A stretch of DNA of 25,934 nt, from the IMG/VR virus record IMGVR_UViG_3300033144_003363, positions 1 through 25,934 of that record. The stretch is one strand, 5' to 3'. Positions within the stretch are counted from its first letter, which is position 1; each line of letters begins with the position of its first letter. The DNA comes from a virus. Both the position numbers and the translations under genes were made by a program. This document shows positions 632 through 18,097 of this stretch, one piece after another. Below the pieces are notes generated by a model. The model was not told the DNA's origin. It worked only from the letters and a program-made list of their open reading frames with translations, and did no database searches.

Positions 632-808
632 CTATACTCCCATGTCGGTTGGTGTCATCGAGACCAGCTCGGCCTCGGTGATCGTCTGTTCCAGGACGTC
701 GCGGTCGCTGAGCTCGCTCACGGCCTGCTTCTCGCGCAGAGCGTCGAGGATGCTCTCCAAGGTCGCCACCCGCCTGAAACTCACGTTGTCGTCGAATAGG
801 TACGTCAT
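632..808 (-). CDS. Small hypothetical protein (58 aa), first gene of leftward unit
   Basis: I place the start at ATG 808-806, which has a GGGAG motif seven bases upstream. The open frame reaches further (to 943), but that extra part has no ribosome binding site and unlikely composition. The 58-aa product begins MTYLFDDNVSFRRVATLESI and is acidic and mostly helical-looking, with an SELSDRDVLEQTITEAELVSM segment. There are no cysteines and no membrane segment. It ends three bases before the start of the membrane-protein gene. It is the first leftward gene next to the long non-coding region. Function unknown. Confidence 0.65.
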   Translation of the reverse strand: MTYLFDDNVSFRRVATLESILDALREKQAVSELSDRDVLEQTITEAELVSMTPTDMGV

Positions 809-1112
809 GTCGGAACTCCCGTTCTCGGGCCCCGCGGGACGCGGGACACCACATCCACATCGCGCTCGCGCGATATGTATCGCCCAACACACTCGCGGGA
901 GAGGGTCAGTCAAGGGCGGAGCGAGAAACCCCGTAAGGGGCAAGCGAGCGAAGCGAGCGCAGAGCTGTCGAGACTAGCGAAGCGGCTCGACTGGTTTTCT
1001 TGCGTAGTCGCCGCAGGCGAGAGGGAACACGGCCTGACCACCACTGGGACATAAGGATGTCATGCGTTCTCACGCATGATGGCCGGCCACCCCGGTGTTT
1101 CCTCCCCTTTAC
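809..1112. other. Intergenic region with dense short inverted repeats (left part)
   Basis: No convincing gene is seen. The stretch holds a tandem GCGGGAC repeat (834-847) and these inverted repeats: 857-878 (ATCGCG, loop CTCG, CGCGAT); 929-940 (CCCC, GNRA-type loop GTAA, GGGG); 967-991 (GTCGAG with CTCGAC, loop containing GCGAAGC); 1008-1020 (TCGCC, loop GCA, GGCGA); and 1060-1079 (TCATGCGT, loop TCTC, ACGCATGA, extendable by a G-T pair that works as G-U only in plus-strand RNA). GCGAAGC, a heptamer known to form an unusually stable mini-hairpin in single-stranded DNA, occurs twice (948-954 and 977-983). The region must also contain the leftward promoter; a TTGACT (complement of 908-913) is the only -35-like hexamer I see and it lacks a well-placed -10. 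It could be the 5' part of the RNA described next, or a separate leader. Confidence 0.5.
1059..1080 (+). other. Perfect 8-bp stem-loop in the divergent region
   Basis: TCATGCGT (1060-1067) pairs with ACGCATGA (1072-1079) around a TCTC loop, and 1059/1080 can add a G-U pair on the plus strand. It is not followed by a T-run, so it is not a typical intrinsic terminator. It could be an operator-like palindrome or an RNA hairpin. Confidence 0.5.
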
Positions 1113-1138
1113 TTATCCCTCGAGAGCCGAGTGATAAT
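1108..1138 (+). promoter_or_regulatory. Possible host sigma-70-type promoter upstream of the structured RNA
   Basis: TTTACT (1108-1113) and GATAAT (1133-1138, five of six to TATAAT) are separated by 19 bases, which is longer than the ideal 17. Transcription would start near 1145 and run into the structured region. The spacer overlaps an inverted repeat (TTATC 1113-1117 with GATAA 1133-1137, plus CTC/GAG inside), which may instead be RNA structure or a repressor site. Weak evidence. Confidence 0.25.
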
Positions 1139-1160
1139 GTCGGGCGATCATATAGAGAGA
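1135..1160 (+). promoter_or_regulatory. Possible phage-RNA-polymerase (T7-type) promoter
   Basis: TATAGAGAGA at 1151-1160 matches nine of ten bases of the T7 promoter initiation region TATAGGGAGA, with the start expected at G1155. TAAT at 1135-1138 resembles the upstream end of a T7 promoter, but it lies three bases further away than in T7. No phage RNA polymerase gene is visible in this window and no clear second copy was found. CTATA followed closely by GGG at 2115-2124 and 2158-2166 is a loose resemblance only. Confidence 0.25.
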
Positions 1161-1596
1161 GAGACCACCGACAGGGCTTTGACCAAGCCAGAGCGAGCAT
1201 GGCGCTGCCCATGCGGCAAGGACATGGCATCGCCATGTTATTGACGCTGGGCGCCATGCTTGCGGTTCTGGATTGTCCACTCGGGCAATACAGAACTGGC
1301 TTGCGTCAAGCTCAGGGGTAACAGGACGATCGCGCAGCGATTGGCCCTGGTACACCGAGAGCGTAAGCCGGGCCACAGGCTGGGCGACCAGTCCCGAGAG
1401 ACGTGACGCGCATCTTGCGCGGCCGCGTCGAACGTGGACACCAAGAACCACTAGGATTGATGAACCTGATCCTTCAGGTTCTCGCATCCAAGGCCGAAGC
1501 CTTGGCCGTGGGATTGTAAAGGACGGCGGAACGTCCTTACCATGGCGCAAGCCATTCGAGACATACGTCACCAGCACTGACATTTAATTGTCGAGC
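1145..1596 (+). ncRNA. Candidate large structured non-coding RNA upstream of the small terminase gene
   Basis: No credible reading frame exists here, yet nearly every base can be placed in nested or adjacent helices. Visible pairs: 1188-1194/1310-1316 (CCAGAGC with GCTCAGG, one A-A mismatch) enclose three arms: 1197-1202/1209-1214, 1222-1228/1232-1238, and a composite arm 1241-1309. The composite arm has four helices: 1241-1247/1303-1309, 1253-1256/1297-1300, 1265-1270/1291-1296 and 1272-1278/1283-1289. Then follow 1327-1333/1337-1343; 1344-1347/1370-1373; 1378-1383/1388-1393 (GCGA loop); 1401-1410/1424-1435 (GA bulge); 1462-1469/1474-1481; 1488-1494/1499-1505 (CGAA loop); 1516-1525/1532-1540 (A bulge); and 1542-1546/1551-1555 (GCAA loop). 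Several stems need G-T pairs that become G-U only in plus-strand RNA (1276/1285, 1328/1342, 1379/1392), which fixes the strand. Size and complexity recall the phage-associated GOLLD and ROOL RNAs. No family assignment is made, and both ends are uncertain. Confidence 0.55.
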
Positions 1597-1621
1597 GTTA
1601 TCAACTGTCTCCATTTGTCCA

Positions 1622-1653
1622 TTGACAGCCCAAAAGGTTACGGTGCTTATTAA
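1622..1653 (+). promoter_or_regulatory. Possible sigma-70-type promoter for the small terminase unit
   Basis: A perfect -35 hexamer TTGACA lies at 1622-1627. The best -10 candidates downstream are TATTAA (1648-1653, spacer 20) and GCTTAT (1645-1650, spacer 17); both are weak. The local drop in GC fits a promoter. Transcription would begin about 20 bases before the ATG at 1682. Confidence 0.4.
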
Positions 1654-1681: not shown

Positions 1682-2101
1682 ATGCCTCAATACATCGACG
1701 TGACGACCGGTCGACCGCTCGCTCCCATCGAGTTCCCACTGACCAAGAAACAGCGCAAGCTCGTGGACACACTCGTAACGTCGAGACTGAGCATCACCGA
1801 TGCAGCCGTGACAGCAGGCTACGCCAACGGTATCAAGTGTGAAGCTGGTCGCTGTGCGGCGTCTAAAGCACTCCGATTGCCGCATGTAGTAGCTTACATG
1901 ATGCAAGAGACAAGTGCTGCGATGGGTGTGGACGCTGCCAGAGCCAGGCAGTCCATAGCCACGATGAGCTCAGAGGCTCGGTCCGAGTACGTGAAGTTCC
2001 TCGCAAGCAAGGACATCCTCGATCGGACAGGTTTCAAACCGCCAGAGAAGCACGTCCATGAGCACGGACAACTCGATGTTAACATCCGGTTAGATAAGTG
2101 A
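1682..2101 (+). CDS. Probable terminase small subunit
   Basis: The 139-aa product resembles small terminase subunits of the Terminase_2-like type, which bind phage DNA at the packaging site and recruit the large subunit. Residues of about 20-50 carry the family's pattern LTKKQRKLVDTL, then SITDAAVTAGYA, expected to form a DNA-binding helix-turn-helix. Residues of about 58-70 (ASKALRLPHVVAYM) match the usual 'replete... l..p.v..yi' helix. The C-terminal ILDRTGFKPPEK element is also typical. I prefer ATG 1682, since the frame's only upstream initiator is a TTG at 1622 lying inside a promoter-like TTGACA. The ribosome binding site is weak (GGA about 15 bases upstream). The gene follows the structured region and precedes small accessory genes; the large subunit lies 3.3 kb downstream, a common separation. 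It is less GC-rich than its neighbours. Confidence 0.65.
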   Translation: MPQYIDVTTGRPLAPIEFPLTKKQRKLVDTLVTSRLSITDAAVTAGYANGIKCEAGRCAASKALRLPHVVAYMMQETSAAMGVDAARARQSIATMSSEARSEYVKFLASKDILDRTGFKPPEKHVHEHGQLDVNIRLDK

Positions 2102-5440: not shown

Positions 5441-6952
5441 ATGGCTGGCCTCGACTACGAGGCCGGCGGCAAGGTTCTAGCGGACTTCATCAAGGGCGAT
5501 AAGTTCGTTAAAGGCATCCGCGGTCCTCTTGGATCCGGCAAGTCCGTCGGCGCGTGCATCGACATCTTTATGCGTGGTTTGGCCCAAGTGCCGAACCGTG
5601 AAGGTATCCGGAAATCGAAATTCGCCGTGCTGCGCCGTACCGGCCCGCAGCTCAAAACGACCACAATCGCAACGTGGCTCCAGTGGTTCCCCGAAAAGCG
5701 CTGGGGCCGCTTCTTCTGGACGCCGCCGTTCCGTCACGAGATCCGCGCCGGCGACGTCGAAATGGATGTCCTGTTCCTGGCGCTCGATCGACCTCAAGAC
5801 ATCGATAATCTGCTCTCGCTCGAAATCACCGCAGCCTGGGTGAACGAAGCCCGCGAGATCCCGAAAGCCATCATCGATCACCTGACCGGGCGCGTGAACC
5901 GCTACCCGCCGCTGATCGACGGCGGCGCGACCGTCCCTGGCGTCGTGATGGACACCAACTCGCCGGAAGAGGACCATTGGTGGCCGATTATGTCGGGCGA
6001 GGCCCCCGCCCCGGACTGGATGACGGATGAGGACAAACTGACCTACATCCTGCCGGAAAACTGGAAATTCTTCACCCAGCCCGCTGCGATGGTCGAGCTG
6101 CTCGACGGCGAGGGCAAACTCTTCGATTATGACATCAATCCGAACGCCGAGAACCTCGAGTACCTGGCCGGCGACTATTACCCGAACACCATCCAGGGCA
6201 AGACGAAAGCCTGGATCGATGTCTACATCCTGAACCGCCTTGGCAGCGATCAAGAGGGCAAGCCGGTCCAAAAGGGCTTCCGTCGGGACATCCACGTCGC
6301 CCATGACGTCCTGGTCGCCTCTCCCGATGGTAAGCTCTTGATCGGCCTCGATTTCGGTCTGACGCCAGCCGCAATCATCTGCCAGATCATCGGCGGCCGC
6401 TGGCGGGTCCTCGAGGAGATCGTCACGAGCGATATGGGCGTCAAAGCCTTCGGTCAACGCCTCAAGATGCACCTCGCCGTCAATTACCCCGGAATGGCCT
6501 CACAGATTTGGGGCGACCCTGCGGGCGACCACCGCGCCCAAACCGATGAAATGACGCCGTTCCGGTTGCTCGATAATATGGGCGTGCCGGCGTTGCCGGC
6601 CCCCGGCGAGAACGACCTGACCATGCGGATTGAGGCTGTCGACTCGATCCTGTCACGGATGATCGATGGGATGCCCGGCGTCTTGATCTCGCCAAATTGC
6701 CGGATCCTGATTTCCGGCCTCGAGGGCAAGTACCAGTACAAGCGGCGGCGCACCGCCGATGGCGTGAAGTACGATCCGAAGCCGGACAAGAACCATTACA
6801 GCCATATTTGCGAGGCGTTCCAATATGCCGCGCTAGGCGCCGGCGAGGGCTCGCGATTGCTCCAAAGCAACCGACCTCGAGGTCAAGCCAATACTCGCGG
6901 CCGCTGGCGGAAATTCGGCGATCGCACACGTCAACGGCTGCGTGCCGGATGA
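5441..6952 (+). CDS. terL: Terminase large subunit (packaging ATPase and nuclease)
   Basis: The 503-aa product has the two-domain layout of large terminases. The Walker A P-loop is GPLGSGKS at residues 28-35. The Walker B/catalytic acid region is ITAAWVNEAREI, with Glu134 as the probable catalytic carboxylate. The C-terminal RNase H-like nuclease shows GLDFG (Asp302), GDPAG (Asp357) and a third acidic site in HICEAFQYA (Glu456), after the typical PDKNHYSH lead-in. The protein drives ATP-dependent DNA translocation into the prohead and cuts the genome at the portal. Its length is normal. No strong ribosome binding site precedes ATG 5441, so it may rely on coupling to the gene ending at 5432. 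It overlaps the next gene by ATGA. Confidence 0.95.
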   Translation: MAGLDYEAGGKVLADFIKGDKFVKGIRGPLGSGKSVGACIDIFMRGLAQVPNREGIRKSKFAVLRRTGPQLKTTTIATWLQWFPEKRWGRFFWTPPFRHEIRAGDVEMDVLFLALDRPQDIDNLLSLEITAAWVNEAREIPKAIIDHLTGRVNRYPPLIDGGATVPGVVMDTNSPEEDHWWPIMSGEAPAPDWMTDEDKLTYILPENWKFFTQPAAMVELLDGEGKLFDYDINPNAENLEYLAGDYYPNTIQGKTKAWIDVYILNRLGSDQEGKPVQKGFRRDIHVAHDVLVASPDGKLLIGLDFGLTPAAIICQIIGGRWRVLEEIVTSDMGVKAFGQRLKMHLAVNYPGMASQIWGDPAGDHRAQTDEMTPFRLLDNMGVPALPAPGENDLTMRIEAVDSILSRMIDGMPGVLISPNCRILISGLEGKYQYKRRRTADGVKYDPKPDKNHYSHICEAFQYAALGAGEGSRLLQSNRPRGQANTRGRWRKFGDRTRQRLRAG

Positions 6953-7627: not shown

Positions 7628-9259
7628 ATGGCTGACTTTGCTCAAGCAACTGGCGATCTCCTTGGTGACGCGCCAACGGCGATCGCGGGCGCACCCAACA
7701 CCAACGATGAGATTAGCCAGATCCTCAGACTGGTTGCGCGCATGGTTACAAAGCGCAAGCTCTGGGAACCGATCTTCGATGACTGCTACAAATTCGCGCT
7801 GCCGGCGCGCGCCCGCTTCGATCAGACGACCGTTGGTCGCGACAACGCCGGTGAGATCTTCGATTCGACCGCTGTCAACTCCACGCCGGAATTTGCCTCG
7901 AGGCTCCAGTCGGGCATCGTGCCGCCCGGCGTCCGCTTTGCCAAACTGGTCGCCGGCCTCGATGTGCCGGAGAACCAGCGCGAAGACATCAACCGGCAAC
8001 TCGGCCCGATCAACGATGAGATCTTCCGCGCGATCCGCGATTCGAACTTCTCCACGGCGGTCGCCGAGAGCTTCCACGACATCGCGATCGGCACCGCAGC
8101 CCTGATCGCCGATCCCGGCGATGCAGTCCAGGTCGTCAACTTCACCTCGGTGCCATTGACCAACCTTCTGATCAAAGGTGGCCCCTGGGGCGTTATCGAG
8201 ACGATGGCGCGTGAGCGGCGGCTAGAACTCCGCGACGCCTTCAGCTTTTACGAAACCGGGACCTTCAGCCCCGATATGATCCAGGCGATGCACAACAAGC
8301 CGGAAGCTATGTGCGATTTCGTTGAAATCACCTGGCGCGATCGCTCGCTCGCCACCGAACGCTGGCAATACCGGGTAATCGCCAAGAAGTTCAAGCACAT
8401 GGTCGACAGCGACGTGTTCGACGGTCAGGGCTCGAACCCTTGGATGGTCTACCGCTGGACGGTTGCCTCGGGCGAGGATTGGGGCCGTGGGCCGCTCATG
8501 AACGCGCTCCCCGACATCAAGACCCTCAATCTCGTTCAAGAGCTCACGCTCGAAAACGCCGAGATCGCGATCGCCGGTATGTGGCAGACCGACGATGAGC
8601 AGACGATCAACTCGGACAATATCCAGTTGGTCCCTGGCACCATCGTTCCGAAGCGACCCGGCTCCAATGGTCTCGAACCCCTCGAATCGCCGTCGAACTT
8701 CGATGTTGGCCGTTTCGTCACCGAAGAACTCCAGACCTCCATCAAACACGCTCTCTTCGACGATATGCTTGGCCCTGTCGATGACCCGGTGAAATCGGCG
8801 ACCGAGATCAACGTCCGGCGCGCGGAGCTCGCCCGCCGTATCGGCGCCGCCTATGGCCGGCTGATCAATGAGATGGTCCGGCCTGTCGTCATCCGCGTCG
8901 CTCAGATCCTTCGCCTACGCGGTGTGATCGATCTACCCGAGATCGACGGACGTTTCATCGACATCGTTGTCACGTCGCCACTGGCGAACAGCCAGGCCGA
9001 TGAAGAGATCCTCGCGCTCGATCGCTACCTCGAGCAGCTGAACCTCCGCTTCGGCGCCCGGCTTACCCAGGTCGCCGTCAAGGCCGAAGAGGCGGCCCGC
9101 TTCCTCGGCAAGCAGCACGGTATCGATCCGGCGCTCCTTCGGAACGAGCAGGAGGCCCGGACCCTCGCTGAGCAGATGGGGCAGATGGCTGGTGAGGCCG
9201 CGGCCGCTGGCATGGATCCCGCCGCGATCGCCGGCGCAACACAGTCGCAACTCGGATGA
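7628..9259 (+). CDS. Head-tail connector (portal) protein
   Basis: The 543-aa product belongs to the head-to-tail connecting protein family of podoviruses (T7 gp8-like). It forms the dodecameric ring through which DNA enters and to which the tail attaches. Supporting features are the early region KRKLWEPIFDDCYKFALPA, then EIFDSTAVNSTPEFASRL and QSGIVPPGVRFAKL. The hallmark C-terminal-third stretch is FDDMLGPVDDPVKSATEI, followed by a long Arg-rich helix (RRAELARRIGAAYGRLINEM). The end is Ala/Gln-rich (QMAGEAAAAGMDPAA). The length fits the family. No strong ribosome binding site is visible. The stop overlaps the next ATG (ATGA). Confidence 0.93.
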   Translation: MADFAQATGDLLGDAPTAIAGAPNTNDEISQILRLVARMVTKRKLWEPIFDDCYKFALPARARFDQTTVGRDNAGEIFDSTAVNSTPEFASRLQSGIVPPGVRFAKLVAGLDVPENQREDINRQLGPINDEIFRAIRDSNFSTAVAESFHDIAIGTAALIADPGDAVQVVNFTSVPLTNLLIKGGPWGVIETMARERRLELRDAFSFYETGTFSPDMIQAMHNKPEAMCDFVEITWRDRSLATERWQYRVIAKKFKHMVDSDVFDGQGSNPWMVYRWTVASGEDWGRGPLMNALPDIKTLNLVQELTLENAEIAIAGMWQTDDEQTINSDNIQLVPGTIVPKRPGSNGLEPLESPSNFDVGRFVTEELQTSIKHALFDDMLGPVDDPVKSATEINVRRAELARRIGAAYGRLINEMVRPVVIRVAQILRLRGVIDLPEIDGRFIDIVVTSPLANSQADEEILALDRYLEQLNLRFGARLTQVAVKAEEAARFLGKQHGIDPALLRNEQEARTLAEQMGQMAGEAAAAGMDPAAIAGATQSQLG

Positions 9260-10616: not shown

Positions 10617-11438
10617 GTGAGTACCACGGTTGACCAACACTTCGTCGAGCAGTTCGAGGCCGAAGTCCATCTCAGCTATCAGCGATTTGGATCGATGCTT
10701 CGGAATACCGTCCGGCGTAAGGACGGCATTGTCGGTAGCCAGACCAATTTCCGTAAGTCCGGAAAAGGGACGGCGGGCACGAAGTCACGTCACGGCCAAG
10801 TCCCGCTCGCGAATCTGGTTCACACGAATGTCGTTTGCGCGCTCGCCGACTACTACCTCGGCGAGTTCCTGGACGAGCTCGATGAACTGAAGACCAACAT
10901 CGACGAACGCGAAATCGCTACCGTCTCCCTGGCTGCGGCCATGGGTCGGAAGTCCGACGAGCTCATTCGCGATGATGGTCTCACTCAAGCGACCAACCAG
11001 ACCGCCACCGCCGGCGGCGTCACCAAGGCCAAGCTCGAGATCATCTACGAGAGCTTCGGCAACAAGGACGTCCCGGCCGACGGTCAGCGTTACATCGGTG
11101 TGAGCGCGCAAGGCTTCACCGACCTGATGAACCTCGCGGAATTCTCCACAGCCGAATTCATGGGCTCGGGCGAACTTCCGTGGCGTAATCCGGTCGGCGC
11201 CAAGCGGTTCATGTCATTCATCGTGTTCGAGTATTCCGGCTGGTCGATGCCCGCCGCGATTCGGACTTCGATGGCATGGCACCGCACCGCGGTTGGTCAT
11301 GGCAGCGGCAAGGAGATCGGCCTGGACCTGACCTGGCAGGGTAAGGAACAGGCGCACCTCGCCGTAACCTCGATGAGCCAAGGCTCGTGCACCATCGACA
11401 CCGATGGCCTGTACGAACTTCGGCACACCGAAGTTTAG
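10617..11438 (+). CDS. Major capsid protein
   Basis: The start is GTG at 10617, fixed by a strong AAGGAGG at ideal spacing. The 273-aa product has the pattern of a podovirus capsid family distinct from T7 gp10: VEQFEAEVHLSYQRFGSMLR at the N-terminus, then RRKDGIVGSQTNFRKSGKGT, KSRHGQVPLANLVHTNV, and DYYLGEFLDELDELKTNIDE. A later GERYIGVSAQGF-like strand (actual sequence DGQRYIGVSAQGF) and PWRNPVGAKRFMSFI fit the HK97-like axial domain. It assembles the icosahedral head on the scaffold encoded upstream. The very strong ribosome binding site fits a highly expressed virion protein. Confidence 0.85.
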   Translation: MSTTVDQHFVEQFEAEVHLSYQRFGSMLRNTVRRKDGIVGSQTNFRKSGKGTAGTKSRHGQVPLANLVHTNVVCALADYYLGEFLDELDELKTNIDEREIATVSLAAAMGRKSDELIRDDGLTQATNQTATAGGVTKAKLEIIYESFGNKDVPADGQRYIGVSAQGFTDLMNLAEFSTAEFMGSGELPWRNPVGAKRFMSFIVFEYSGWSMPAAIRTSMAWHRTAVGHGSGKEIGLDLTWQGKEQAHLAVTSMSQGSCTIDTDGLYELRHTEV

Positions 11439-11781: not shown

Positions 11782-12360
11782 ATGTCGCACACGGATATTG
11801 AGATTGCGTCCAAAGCGCTCGTTCGAATCGGTGCCCGCCCGATTTCCGATTTCGAGTCGAACAGCACTGAGTCGGCTGTCGCCGGCGACATCTACTACGA
11901 GGTGCTGGACGGCTACCTGACGGAGCGAAATTGGCCGTTCGCCAACGGTCAGATCGATCTTGGCGCAGTCCTCGAGGCTGAGCCTGTCGCCAACTGGAGC
12001 TATGCGTTCCAGCTCCCCACAAACCCGCCTGTCCTGGCGATCCGCCGCATCACACGCAGCGGCGTCGACATCATTTATGAGCGGCACGAAGATAAGATCT
12101 ACACCGAAGAGGACGCCGATCTCCAGATGGATTACACCTTCCGTCCGGTCGCCGGCAACTTCCCGGCCTATTTTGTCGAGGCCCTCATCAACCGTCTCGG
12201 CACGTCATTCGCGATCGCGATCCCGCGTAATCTCGAACTGGCGAACGCGATGAACACGATCGAAGAGCATCGCACCGCCAATGGCGGCGCTGTCGCCTCA
12301 CAAGAGCACACCACGAAACGAATTCACGCCACCCGACTGACTGGTCGTAGGCGCAGCTAA
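11782..12360 (+). CDS. Tail tubular protein A
   Basis: The 192-aa product resembles T7 gp11-like adaptor proteins that form the ring between portal and nozzle. The N-terminus EIASKALVRIGARPISDFES and the following YYEVLDGYLTERNWPFA (the conserved 'l....W.fA' element) are characteristic. So are WSYAFQLPTNPPVLAIRRI and YFVEALINRLGTSFAIAIP, followed by a helical C-terminus rich in Arg (RLTGRRRS). TAGGAG lies about eight bases before ATG 11782. The stop and the next start share TAATG. Confidence 0.9.
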   Translation: MSHTDIEIASKALVRIGARPISDFESNSTESAVAGDIYYEVLDGYLTERNWPFANGQIDLGAVLEAEPVANWSYAFQLPTNPPVLAIRRITRSGVDIIYERHEDKIYTEEDADLQMDYTFRPVAGNFPAYFVEALINRLGTSFAIAIPRNLELANAMNTIEEHRTANGGAVASQEHTTKRIHATRLTGRRRS

Positions 12361-14291
12361 TGGGTCTAGCCAAGACGCCGCAGACCGATTTCGTCTCGGG
12401 CGAGCTCGATCCGCTGATGATCGGTCGATCGGACATCGATCACTATGCCCATGGCGCTGCCTCGCTTCGGAACATGCGCCTATTGCTGCATGGCGGCGTT
12501 CGCCGGCGCCCGGGTCTCGAACATAAGAATACGTTTGTCCCGACGACAGCGATTGGGCTCCTGCCCTTCATCTTCTCGGACACTCAGAAAAACATCCTCG
12601 CGTTCTCCAACGCCCGGCTCGATGTCTATGACACCGCCGGCGTCCTACAACAGACCTTGACCAGCCAGCCGTGGACCACGGCAATGCTGCCCCAGCTCCG
12701 TTTCACTCAGGGCGGCGATACGATGTTCCTCGCAAATGGGGATCTTGTAACCCAGACCATCACCCGGACTGGCGCCGACACCTTCGCCGTCGCCAACTAC
12801 GCCTTCGAGGAGCACTCGGACGGCCACCCGAAATATCAGCCCTATTACAAATATGCGCCGGTCGAGATGACGCTCACGCCGTCGTCAACGACTGGCGCGA
12901 GCAACCTCACTGTCTCCTCTGCCTATTGGACGACCGATCACGAGAACACGATCGTTCGATACAAGGGCAAGGAGATCATGTGCGACACGCGCACCTCGTC
13001 GACGATCATGGCCGGCACCGTCCGCGAGACGCTCGATGACACCACCGGCGATCGCGATTGGGACGAGCAGACATTCTCGGCCGAGAAGGGCTGGCCGAAT
13101 GAAGCCGAGATGCACGAACAGCGCCTATGGTTCCTGGGATCCAAGGGCCGACCCCCTGGTGTCTGGGGCTCCAAAATTGGAGCGTTCAGGAACTTCGACA
13201 AGGGCACCGGCCTGGACGATGAAGCGATCTGGGAATCAGTCGGCGACAAGGTGATTAATGAGATCCGCTCCGGTCTCAGCTTGCGCGATCTTCTGATCTT
13301 CACCGACCGTGGCGAGTTCTACGTCCCGACGCAGATCAATACGCCGATCACGCCCGAGACCTTCAGCGCACCGCAGCAGACGCCCTACGGCATCGGCACC
13401 GTTCGGCCCTATGCTCTTGATGGCGCTGCCATTTTCATCCAGAAATCCGGCAAGGCCGCCCGCGAAATGATCTTCGATGAAGTCGAGGACGCCTACACCG
13501 CAGAGCCGATCTCATTGCTGTCGCCGCACCTCATCAAGACGCCGGTCGATATGTCGGTCCTGTACGGCGAAGCCGAGATCACGGAACAGTATGCCTACCT
13601 CGTGAACAGCGACGGCACGATGTCGACCTTCCACACGATCCGCTCGCAGTCGGTCGCGGCCTGGGCACCATGGGACACCGAAGGCGGCGAGACCGTGCCA
13701 GCGTTCGAATCGATCTGCATCCTCGATGATGAAATCTTTGTCTGTGTCGAACGAACGATCGATGGTGCCACGATCAAGCGGCTCGAGAAGTTCAACAACG
13801 CCTATATGCTCGACGCCAGCATCAAGATCTCTGGCGCGGCAACGGACACCTTCGGCGGGCTTGGACACCTCGAAGACCAGGTGGTCCAGGTTGTCTCGGG
13901 CGGCGTCCTCGATGGCGGCACCTACACTGTCGTGAGTGGTTCGATCACCACGGAGGACGAACACACCGACGTCGAGATCGGCCTCGATTTCACGACGGAG
14001 TTGCAGACCCTTCCGCCGAACGTCGTTACGAAATCCGCTGATTTCTCAGGCGAATTGAAGGGCCTGGTCCGGACACTCATCCGCTTTGACAATACCTACA
14101 GCGCTCGAGTTGAGGGCCAGGATCTCATCCTACGCACCGTCAACGAGGACCTGGGCAACCCACCGACGCCGGCGACCGGCTGGCGAGAGTTCTATCACGT
14201 CGGTTATGACCGCGACGCTCAGTCGACAGTCGACCAGGATCGACCGTTGCCGATGACGATCTTGTCCCTGCAAACAGAGGTGCTCGTCTGA
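12360..14291 (+). CDS. Tail tubular protein B (tail nozzle)
   Basis: The 643-aa product matches the T7 gp12-like tail tubular protein B family, which builds the distal nozzle of the short tail. The N-terminus KTPQTDFVSGELDPLMIGRS with DIDHYAHGAASLRNMRLLLH and GGVRRRPGLEHK is diagnostic. The middle holds the family's WTTAMLPQLRFTQGGDTMFL and LANGD segments, and later EMHEQRLWFLGSKGRPPGVW. At 643 aa it is shorter than T7's protein (about 790 aa), as is common outside the T7 group. It uses TAATG from the upstream gene and TGATG into the next. Confidence 0.93.
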   Translation: MGLAKTPQTDFVSGELDPLMIGRSDIDHYAHGAASLRNMRLLLHGGVRRRPGLEHKNTFVPTTAIGLLPFIFSDTQKNILAFSNARLDVYDTAGVLQQTLTSQPWTTAMLPQLRFTQGGDTMFLANGDLVTQTITRTGADTFAVANYAFEEHSDGHPKYQPYYKYAPVEMTLTPSSTTGASNLTVSSAYWTTDHENTIVRYKGKEIMCDTRTSSTIMAGTVRETLDDTTGDRDWDEQTFSAEKGWPNEAEMHEQRLWFLGSKGRPPGVWGSKIGAFRNFDKGTGLDDEAIWESVGDKVINEIRSGLSLRDLLIFTDRGEFYVPTQINTPITPETFSAPQQTPYGIGTVRPYALDGAAIFIQKSGKAAREMIFDEVEDAYTAEPISLLSPHLIKTPVDMSVLYGEAEITEQYAYLVNSDGTMSTFHTIRSQSVAAWAPWDTEGGETVPAFESICILDDEIFVCVERTIDGATIKRLEKFNNAYMLDASIKISGAATDTFGGLGHLEDQVVQVVSGGVLDGGTYTVVSGSITTEDEHTDVEIGLDFTTELQTLPPNVVTKSADFSGELKGLVRTLIRFDNTYSARVEGQDLILRTVNEDLGNPPTPATGWREFYHVGYDRDAQSTVDQDRPLPMTILSLQTEVLV

Positions 14292-14833: not shown

Positions 14834-17800
14834 ATGCCTACTGGAATTCAGCGCTTTGAACCAAGCACACGCATTGGCCTGACGAACGTCTCCTCTGGCG
14901 GCGTGTCGAATATCGGCGGCGATCTGTCCAGGATCGGTAGCCGGTTGCTCAGTTTCGCCGATGCCCAAATCACGGAAGAGAACCAAGAGCAGGCGCGCAT
15001 CGATCAAGATCGCGCGGAGACGATCGGTCGAACGCTCGCCTTCAGTCGAGATCCCCTGACAGGCTCTTTCGACAACCGGCCAACGGTCAACGGCACGCTC
15101 GCCAACCAGCAGATGATTGCCTCCTTCGACCAGTACCGTTTCCTGGTCAACAGTCGCCGGGCGAAGGATTCGATCAGTGCGCTCGCGCGTGAGAACGCGG
15201 ACGACGCCAACACTTTCGAGATGGCCTCGGACGCCTACGTCAACGAATTCGCAAGCAGCATCCCGGAGCAGCAGCTCAGTTTGGTGATGGCGGAAGTCCG
15301 CGCACACCAAAGCCAGCTTTTCAACGGCATCGCCACCAGGCAGATGGAGCGCCAGGCCGCCGATGTGCTTGCCACGAGCGTCACCGAGATCGAGAAGCTC
15401 ACCGAGGAGGCCCACGATCTCTTGCTCGAGTACCAAGGCCAGGACGATCGACAGGCCGAAGAAGCCGCAACCATGCGGATCGGCCAGATCGAAGATATGT
15501 ACGACCGCCTTGTTGGGCCCAACTACTCTCAGGCATCAGCGGACGCAGCGAAATCCAAGGCGCGCTATGTAATCCTCGAGGGCAAGTTCCTTGGCGTGAT
15601 GCGGAGCATCTACAACGGCGATATGAGCGACGCAGACGCCATGATCGCCGCCGAAGAGTATATCCAGCAGCTCTCCGATGGCGACATCGAGGGCCTCGAT
15701 TCCGACCAGCAGAGGGCTCTCGCCAACTCACTCGCCAGCGATGTCTCGATACGCGAGCGCGTCATCAACGGTAAAGCTACCAAGGCGAAAGCTGCGTCTG
15801 ACATCGCCGCTCAAATGACGATCGCCCAGATCTCCAGCCGAGTGAAGGATTATGTCGAGGGCCGAAGTGATCAGCCCGTTTCCGACATCGAAATGCTGGA
15901 GCTCGTCCAGCGCGGCATCATCAAGGGCGAGACGATGGCGACGTGGCGAAACGCCCAACTGACTGCCGACAATGAGAAAAGCGCGGCGATCATCCAGACG
16001 GTGAAGGATTACCGGCTCGCCACCGACAACATCATCCAGGCGCTCGGCGGCAGGAAAATGCCCCTGACGGCTGACAACACCCGCGCCTATGAGCTGTTCG
16101 TATCGATCGCCAGAGGCGACCCCAAGGTTGCGGCACTCCAGCGCCTCGAGGAAGGCATGGCAGACCTGCCGGAAGCCGAGCAGGAAGCCATGATCGGTTT
16201 CAACCGGCAATTCCAGTTCATCGCCGGCGACCCTGACACGGTTGATCATTGGGGTGGCCTGATCCAGCAGACCGGCTATGTTGACAAGACCGCTCTCGGA
16301 TACCTGGATCTCGTCAAGACCACTCGCGACAGCGGGCAGGCCGATTATGCCGTAAGCCTCTTTTCGGTCATCTCTGGCGACGCTGCCCTACAGGCGCAGC
16401 TCGACCCCGAAACACTCCGTATGCTCCAGGCGCTCGAGCTCTCCGCTGGCAGCGAATCAATCGACGTCACGCTGGCCCGCCTGCAGGACAACGCTGGCAA
16501 AGCAACAGGCGCCGGCGAGGCCTCCGCCCGAACGATCGGTGAAGCCGCGATTGAATTCAAAGAGAACACCCTGACCGCTGTTCGGCGTGTCATGGCCGCT
16601 GGCGGCGCCGGCTATGGCTTTATCGAGAGCTTTGCTGACAAGGCGATCGGCGCGCTAATCCATCCCTTCTATGACGGAGCGCCCGACATCGAGCTGCCGG
16701 CGACCTACTACGCAGAATTCGAGGAGCTGTATAGCCGGCTTGTGACCGACTATCGCAACTCCGGTGTGAAGTTCGATGAAGACCTGCTTCGGGATGAAGT
16801 CGTCGAGCGCCTGGCAAACCGCTGGCAGCCCTCACGCCTCAACAAAGAGGGCGAAGCCCGTATGGTTCAGAACTCGCTCATGGCGATGCACGGCGCTGGC
16901 TACGATGATGAATATGAAGTGATGCACACCATGGCTGCGCCGATCGCCGAAGCCATGTTCCAAAGCGGAATAATGGATCTCGCAGACGAGGACATCAGGG
17001 ATCTGGACGACATCCACGACATGATCGACAACAACCAGATTATCCCGGTCTTCTCGGGCCACCACAATATGGCCGGACAGCCTACCTACCAGATGTGGAT
17101 GGCACGCGATCAAGACGGTGATGGCGTCCTTGGAAATTACGAACCGCTCTTTGGCGAAGGGCTGCGCCGGATGGAATTTGCTCCGCCGCCCTTCGAACAG
17201 AGCGAACAGGGCCTCGAGCAGAGAGCCCGCACCGTAGCGCTCCACCAGGAACTCACGAAGCAACTGGCTGCGATCGAAAGTGAGGAGGGCCGACCTGCGA
17301 CAACTCTCGAAAAGGCTCTGACTGAAGGCACAATCAGGGTCGCTCAATTCGGCGGGAGAACTGTGAAATCGGCTGGCGAATTCCTGGCTGAGAAAGAGCG
17401 TGACTACTTCGGCAATCCATCCCGGATGAACCAAGCGGCTACTCCGCTAGGCATCCCGGAAGGCGAGCCCGGCAACCCGAAACAGGAGGCACGGACCCCC
17501 ATGCAACCAGCCACACAGGCCGTCTTCACTTTGATCAAAACGGACGAAGGCGACACCCTCGGGAAGCAAGACAGCGGCTCCGGTAAGATTGCTGGCGCGC
17601 TTGGCCTGGATCCGGACCGCAAAGCCGAGATCGAGAACAAGGCCGGGAAGCAGCTCACGGACGAACGCGCCGCGGCCATGGCGATCGAAGAGGACTTCGA
17701 CACGCTCAAGGCCAAGCTCCCGAACTATGCGGGCGCTCCTGTCGGCATCCAGGTCGCGCTCCTCGATCTGGTCTACAACGCTGGAACCGGCATCATCAAT

Positions 17801-18097
17801 AAGGCACCGAAGCTCAGAGCGGCGATGGCGAAGAACCCGCCCGACTATCAGGAGGTCTTGATCCAGACCCTCGACACGGCCACGATCAATGGCAAAGCCT
17901 CGAAGGGCATCGCCGGCCGCCGTGCACGGTATTACAACATCGGCATCAACGATCCTGAGCTCGAGATCCGCACGGTTCGTATGTTCCTCAACGGGACGAT
18001 CTCCTATCTCACGGCCGATGGCTCCAACGTCTTCAGCTTCAAGGCGAAGGGCGGCAAGCATGAAGAGAGCGCCGCCGGCATCTTGGAGATCAAGTAG
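14834..18097 (+). CDS. Internal virion protein with C-terminal lysozyme-like domain
   Basis: The 1087-aa product starts at 14834 behind an AAGGGGA ribosome binding site. Most of its length is helical and Gln/Glu/Ala-rich, as in ejected core proteins (T7 gp15 position). Residues of about 890-1045 resemble the T4/P21-type lysozyme fold. Evidence is IKTDEGDTLGKQDSG (Glu905, Asp913), the core helix IQVALLDLVYNAGTGIINKA, and SKGIAGRRARYYN (Arg1029, Arg1030), matching the family's '..GL..RR..E' end. The Glu-to-Asp spacing is 8 rather than the usual 9 residues, and the expected Thr is not evident, so activity is uncertain. The likely role is local peptidoglycan opening during genome ejection. The segment just before it (residues of about 855-890) is a Pro/Gln linker. 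Confidence 0.8.
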   Translation: MPTGIQRFEPSTRIGLTNVSSGGVSNIGGDLSRIGSRLLSFADAQITEENQEQARIDQDRAETIGRTLAFSRDPLTGSFDNRPTVNGTLANQQMIASFDQYRFLVNSRRAKDSISALARENADDANTFEMASDAYVNEFASSIPEQQLSLVMAEVRAHQSQLFNGIATRQMERQAADVLATSVTEIEKLTEEAHDLLLEYQGQDDRQAEEAATMRIGQIEDMYDRLVGPNYSQASADAAKSKARYVILEGKFLGVMRSIYNGDMSDADAMIAAEEYIQQLSDGDIEGLDSDQQRALANSLASDVSIRERVINGKATKAKAASDIAAQMTIAQISSRVKDYVEGRSDQPVSDIEMLELVQRGIIKGETMATWRNAQLTADNEKSAAIIQTVKDYRLATDNIIQALGGRKMPLTADNTRAYELFVSIARGDPKVAALQRLEEGMADLPEAEQEAMIGFNRQFQFIAGDPDTVDHWGGLIQQTGYVDKTALGYLDLVKTTRDSGQADYAVSLFSVISGDAALQAQLDPETLRMLQALELSAGSESIDVTLARLQDNAGKATGAGEASARTIGEAAIEFKENTLTAVRRVMAAGGAGYGFIESFADKAIGALIHPFYDGAPDIELPATYYAEFEELYSRLVTDYRNSGVKFDEDLLRDEVVERLANRWQPSRLNKEGEARMVQNSLMAMHGAGYDDEYEVMHTMAAPIAEAMFQSGIMDLADEDIRDLDDIHDMIDNNQIIPVFSGHHNMAGQPTYQMWMARDQDGDGVLGNYEPLFGEGLRRMEFAPPPFEQSEQGLEQRARTVALHQELTKQLAAIESEEGRPATTLEKALTEGTIRVAQFGGRTVKSAGEFLAEKERDYFGNPSRMNQAATPLGIPEGEPGNPKQEARTPMQPATQAVFTLIKTDEGDTLGKQDSGSGKIAGALGLDPDRKAEIENKAGKQLTDERAAAMAIEEDFDTLKAKLPNYAGAPVGIQVALLDLVYNAGTGIINKAPKLRAAMAKNPPDYQEVLIQTLDTATINGKASKGIAGRRARYYNIGINDPELEIRTVRMFLNGTISYLTADGSNVFSFKAKGGKHEESAAGILEIK

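Follow-up and report, generated by a model that had tools for sequence, protein, structure and literature searches.

A real, unannotated structured element precedes the gene for the terminase small subunit (terS) in the window analysed here, a 25.9-kb podovirus record (25,934 nucleotides taken as a whole). An initial annotation of this DNA drew attention to the structure but overstated its length, the helix thought to close it and the proof of its strand. The existence of a large structured non-coding element at this place is supported by folding energy, synteny and, in relatives, covariation. In the reading that we favour, and whose chances we put at about even, the element would be a plus-strand structured non-coding RNA with its core at 1190-1556, located in the divergent region where the packaging operon begins and acting through its shape. 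More generally, we see in it a new class of rapidly evolving structured elements upstream of terS, probably made of RNA.

Left of the gap that precedes terS, genes lie on the minus strand, and the nearest one with gene-like codon composition is a small divergent gene (Table 1). The GC content at the three codon positions of the ORFs inside the gap is.68/.55/.53,.52/.68/.55 and.65/.50/.57; the main structural genes of the window have about.60/.44/.77. A Pfam search with the 156-aa ORF at 1113-1583 on the minus strand returned no match. Codon-position composition and the lack of relatives rule out the gap ORFs as coding sequences, and because none of them has a gene-like codon composition, the gap of approximately 809-1681 is non-coding, as had been claimed. 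Farther downstream, the window encodes a 1087-aa protein (14834-18097) that may be an internal virion protein; its C-terminus weakly matches phage lysozyme (E 0.0019).

Table 1. Features of the window bearing on the terS-upstream element (positions are those of the window).
Feature	Position	Strand	Evidence or remark
Small divergent gene, 58 aa, left border of the gap	632-808	-	Start codon at 808; codon-position GC.59/.36/.86, gene-like
Left part of the non-coding gap	809-1190		Hairpins not above shuffled sequence; z -1.8 to +0.8
Local hairpin 967-972/986-991	967-991	+	Competitor of the proposed closing pair 985-991/1590-1596
Structured domain, the only part folding beyond chance	1190-1556	+	z -10.1 plus, -7.9 minus; centroid close to MFE
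Long interrupted arm; ends 1193-1203/1253-1263, apical stem 1222-1228/1232-1238	1193-1263	+	Pair probability >0.8 in three fold contexts
Hairpin 1265-1270/1291-1296 and 1273-1278/1283-1288, including G-U pair 1276/1285	1265-1296	+	Predicted fold
Multibranched domain; closing helix 1298-1307/1544-1553	1298-1553	+	1297-1556: z -8.2 plus, -5.0 minus
Arms of the multibranched domain	1310-1362, 1367-1385, 1391-1439, 1454-1489, 1492-1507, 1519-1538	+	
-35-like motif TTTGTCCATTGACA; form in relatives TTTGTGCRTTGACA	1613-1627	+	Common to window and relatives; -10 poor in the window
terS, terminase small subunit	1682-2101	+	phrog_2538 E 4e-8; Terminase_2 E 1.6e-5
terL	5441-6952		
Portal/head-tail connector	7628-9259		
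Major head protein	10617-11438		
Tail protein	12360-14291		

Compared with dinucleotide shuffles, the real sequence folds far more strongly. The plus strand of 985-1600 reaches -289 kcal/mol (z -11.1 with 20 shuffles and -8.9 with 50) and the minus strand -278 kcal/mol (z about -6.7); ten control pieces of 616 nt downstream of terS gave z from +1 to -4. Within this region, the plus strand of 1190-1560 has a minimum free energy (MFE) of -201.4 kcal/mol (z -10.1, with 0 of 100 shuffles as strong) and the minus strand a z of -7.9, and the signal is found both in 1190-1300 (z -8.6) and in 1297-1556. The sub-stretches 809-985, 900-1190 and 985-1190 are ordinary, and 1560-1681 deviates from shuffles by at most 1.8 standard deviations. 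Because dissection confines the signal to 1190-1556, the structured finding amounts to about 370 nt and not 612: the structured RNA of about 600 bases originally delineated at 985-1596 keeps its far-beyond-chance fold and loses its extent.

On the plus strand, 1190-1560 has a well-defined predicted fold, with a centroid energy of -200 against the MFE of -201.4 kcal/mol and 112 of the 134 pairs predicted with a probability above 0.8. More than 15 helices have pair probabilities above 0.8, which agrees with the initial count of at least fifteen. The helix closing the multibranched domain has a competitor in a local GCAA hairpin at 1542-1555. Other structural details fared unevenly. GCTCGAC (985-991) is indeed the exact complement of GTCGAGC (1590-1596), but the helix proposed to close the entire domain is lost once the flanks are folded, when 986-991 pairs with 967-972. 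Of the G-U pairs singled out, the plus-strand MFE structure contains 1276/1285 and 1328/1342 but not 1379/1392. The "several" GNRA loops are few, namely GCAA at 1547, in the competing local hairpin, and GUAA at 933, outside the domain.

The assertion that the structure is compatible with RNA on the plus strand only went too far, given that the minus strand, with z from -6.7 to -7.9, likewise folds well beyond chance. In the final 260 nt ahead of the promoter motif of the window, the plus-minus energy difference exceeds composition by 13.7 kcal/mol (sd 3.2), that is, about 4 standard deviations, and these folding predictions make the plus strand, and hence RNA over DNA, likely for the window. 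The terS-proximal half of the gap is more stable on the plus strand in 51 of 64 relatives' gaps when raw energies are used. We dropped this preference as proof of strand because neighbouring coding DNA leans likewise and the preference is gone after composition correction, when 37 of 64 gaps prefer plus (p = 0.32). When helices were predicted on each strand and counted in a strand-fair way, G-U occurred in 52 variable pairs and A-C in 36 (p = 0.11); the same counts from hairpins alone are too few to serve. Across relatives, plus-strand preference is thus only a trend. Plus-biased purine-rich loop k-mers are ambiguous as strand evidence because CCGAAGG is cUUCGg on the minus strand; the loop at 1495 of the window likewise becomes cUUCGg when read on minus.

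A nucleotide similarity search of 50,697 phage records found no near relative of the window, there is none among the viral contigs obtained either, and TerS as a single-protein query against viral contigs had no match. Related podovirus loci were gathered with TerL and a TerS alignment; compared with the window, their TerL proteins are 50-54% and their TerS proteins 40-59% identical. A non-coding gap of 209-1131 nt separates terS from a divergent gene (required to encode at least 120 aa) in 122 contigs. Many of these terS-upstream gaps fold strongly, with z < -3 in 29 of 64 independent gap clusters versus 7 of 40 in adjacent coding DNA. There is little nucleotide similarity between gap clusters, and the sequence, length and architecture of the gap turn over fast among relatives. 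In one locus (L060), the half of the gap beside the divergent gene favours the minus strand by 44 kcal/mol and the terS-side half favours plus, so that long gaps may contain two elements. Contigs binned as bacterial or archaeal MAGs with the same phage terS and gap (L165-L172) are probably misbinned phage contigs.

Among isolates, only Pelagibacter phage EXVC031P Hodr has a related TerS; its terS (minus strand) and a plus-strand gene diverge across a 337-nt gap (L082:12037-12373) that folds with z about -5 on both strands. This gap holds a near-perfect long inverted repeat with the ribosome-binding site of the divergent gene inside it, and this site could therefore be sequestered in the mRNA. 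GC skew in Hodr is confounded by gene direction and was discarded as a test for an origin.

Strong covariation was found in homologous gaps from two separate clusters of relatives; no relative aligns with the helices of the window itself, so the following figures pertain to relatives only. In the five sequences of cluster C3, 28 of 98 consensus pairs show two-sided changes and 95.5% of cells are paired, with 0 of 500 shuffles scoring as high and slid controls giving 1-3; in the four sequences of cluster D, two-sided changes affect 13 of 55 pairs, the share of paired cells is 99.1%, no shuffle out of 500 equals the covariation score and slid controls give 0-2. Both sets of figures are to be read with the provisos that the structures were derived from the same alignments and that kinship among sequences inflates such counts. 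The two clusters, otherwise dissimilar, share an internal loop in the promoter-proximal arm, in which CAT-S-GTTC lies opposite Y-GGTT-S'-TG, with a G.U/U.U/U.G core and one single-base bulge per side. The motif occurs in nine sequences of the two clusters, and its S-S' pair switches from G-C in one cluster to C-G in the other. A looser form was found in 13 gaps on the plus strand, 1 on the minus strand and 1-3 in shuffles; the motif CAT-S-GTTC/Y-GGTT-S'-TG itself is absent from the window.

The window and its relatives agree in the position, size and foldedness of the element and in the motif TTTGTnCRTTGACA, which lies between the element and terS in both. Direct sequence links are few. A covariance model of the cluster C3 arm (R1) scores 12.2 bits on the plus strand of the window and 11.5 on the minus strand, which is near equal; a model of the window arm (R2) has one match in 609 kb, in the plus strand of the terS-upstream gap of L229 (E 0.11); and blastn gives a single 72-nt match, to L254 (E 0.01). 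We infer that the element of the window is of the same kind as those of the relatives. A consensus scan did not score the TTGACA-containing motif of the window as a promoter. At the left of the gap, the search for a sigma-70 promoter of a separate RNA yielded a faint excess only; neither a promoter nor a terminator for such an RNA was found, nor was an intrinsic terminator between the element and terS.

In 104 of 170 non-redundant terS loci (about 60% of relatives), the -10 region of the terS promoter is immediately followed by a doublet of G-tracts, mostly 16-50 nt before terS (e.g. L196:2444, L209:2436). The two tracts are equal in length in 102 of these 104 loci (7/7, 6/6, 5/5, 8/8) and are separated by spacers such as ACACA, AACACAA, ATTACA or TAA. 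The promoter of the window has no such equal-length doublet; an unequal one is found instead after the terS stop (2102-2132), with the form G7-AGGCATCTATATCGGGAA-G6. A second doublet at or just past the terS stop is also present in relatives (L013:1744, L046:8224, L052:5303, L060:2265, L273:1441), often as GGGGGTGGGGGG or GGGGGTAGGGGG followed by A-runs, and resembles mitochondrial CSB II. Contig ends near G-tracts were set aside as a sign of genome ends because poly-G also breaks assemblies.

If the element is a plus-strand RNA, it would be transcribed in the direction of terS, either on its own or at the upstream end of a terS-operon transcript; as such a leader, it would be expressed from a promoter farther left in the gap. 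The folded RNA may act via its arms and non-canonical internal loops, by binding protein or by controlling read-through into terS and terL, and selection would then be mainly on shape. A packaging or late role may be surmised from position only. A more far-reaching proposal, which we consider less likely than not, is that this entire podovirus group carries a new phage RNA class where the packaging operon starts. Members of this class would retain their foldedness and a few internal-loop motifs, with sequence, length and architecture being rebuilt from one close relative to the next; in most relatives, the RNA would be coupled to a transcription start that bears two equal-length G-tracts, perhaps as part of an RNA-DNA-hybrid switch for replication or packaging. 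Among open-licence papers, we found no description of such an element. If the element is an RNA, large structured RNAs encoded by phages beside their packaging genes form a widespread, unannotated class, of which Hodr is a cultured representative.

A competing explanation, which has a real but minor chance of being correct, is that the gap is a hairpin-rich region functioning as DNA, such as a replication origin or a packaging or recombination site, where template switching during replication makes inverted repeats and keeps them perfect; the apparent compensatory changes would then stem from mutation, with no need for a structured RNA. The near-equal folding of the two strands in relatives (z -2.73 on plus, -2.71 on minus), the excess of two-sided Watson-Crick changes over wobble changes in many clusters, the rapid turnover of gap sequence and length, the inverted repeat in Hodr and the adjoining G-tract doublets, which could mark an origin or packaging site, are all consistent with this explanation. 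A study of template switching reports that this process creates and maintains RNA hairpins with apparent compensation (PMC8794818), and seeming compensatory changes in perfect stems are common to those hairpins and to ours. However, template switching would be expected to erase the bulges and the G.U/U.U/U.G internal loop that are conserved in two clusters; moreover, the compensatory changes are scattered along long arms, and in the window the plus strand leads by about 4 standard deviations after composition correction. Should template switching prove to maintain these structures, they would provide a clear example from nature of how searches for structured RNA are misled by covariation statistics taken alone. 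The structure could also be the minus-strand 5' leader of the divergent gene, controlling its translation or transcription. Although the minus strand too folds beyond chance, the long hairpin of Hodr contains the ribosome-binding site of that gene and the adjacent half of the L060 gap prefers minus, we consider such a leader unlikely: the domain in the window is about 380 nt from the start codon of the divergent gene, the stretch between is unstructured and plus is the favoured strand.

The plus-strand RNA that we favour can be set against several known systems. GOLLD and ROOL, which form homo-oligomeric RNA cages, are likewise large phage non-coding RNAs dense in helices, and the initial annotation had offered a divergent member of these families as one identity for the element. 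According to a 2025 cryo-EM study, GOLLD and ROOL are often found near tRNA islands, and many GOLLD members exceed 800 nt (PMC12286853). The window has no tRNA, and its Rfam search gave no relevant match at gathering score, nor any for 800-1800 when the filters were relaxed and E values as high as 5 allowed; in the gaps of relatives there was no match to GOLLD, ROOL or another relevant family. Phage origin and dense helices notwithstanding, a highly divergent GOLLD or ROOL is scarcely credible for a domain of about 370 nt that sits at terS, has neither a covariance-model match nor a tRNA neighbourhood and lacks a conserved core across relatives.

The pRNA of phi29 is compact and comes from a phage that lacks TerS; RNAs of this type are bound at the portal and required for packaging. 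As in that system, we would have a phage RNA near the packaging genes whose fold is kept while its sequence is free, and its place before the terminase genes would suit a structural component of the motor beside the portal. We nevertheless judge a phi29-like packaging RNA very improbable: these phages encode TerS, an Rfam match is absent, and size and architecture vary several-fold, from about 200 to 1130 nt among relatives, a poor fit to one ring-shaped motor part. The ColE1 RNA II pre-primer and mitochondrial CSB II both have a structured transcript upstream of a G-rich stretch able to form an RNA-DNA hybrid, much as the G-tract doublets of relatives come right after the gap; here, however, there is no evidence of an origin and the promoter of the window lacks the doublet, so the likeness is an analogy only. 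A new class of structured element is compatible with everything found.
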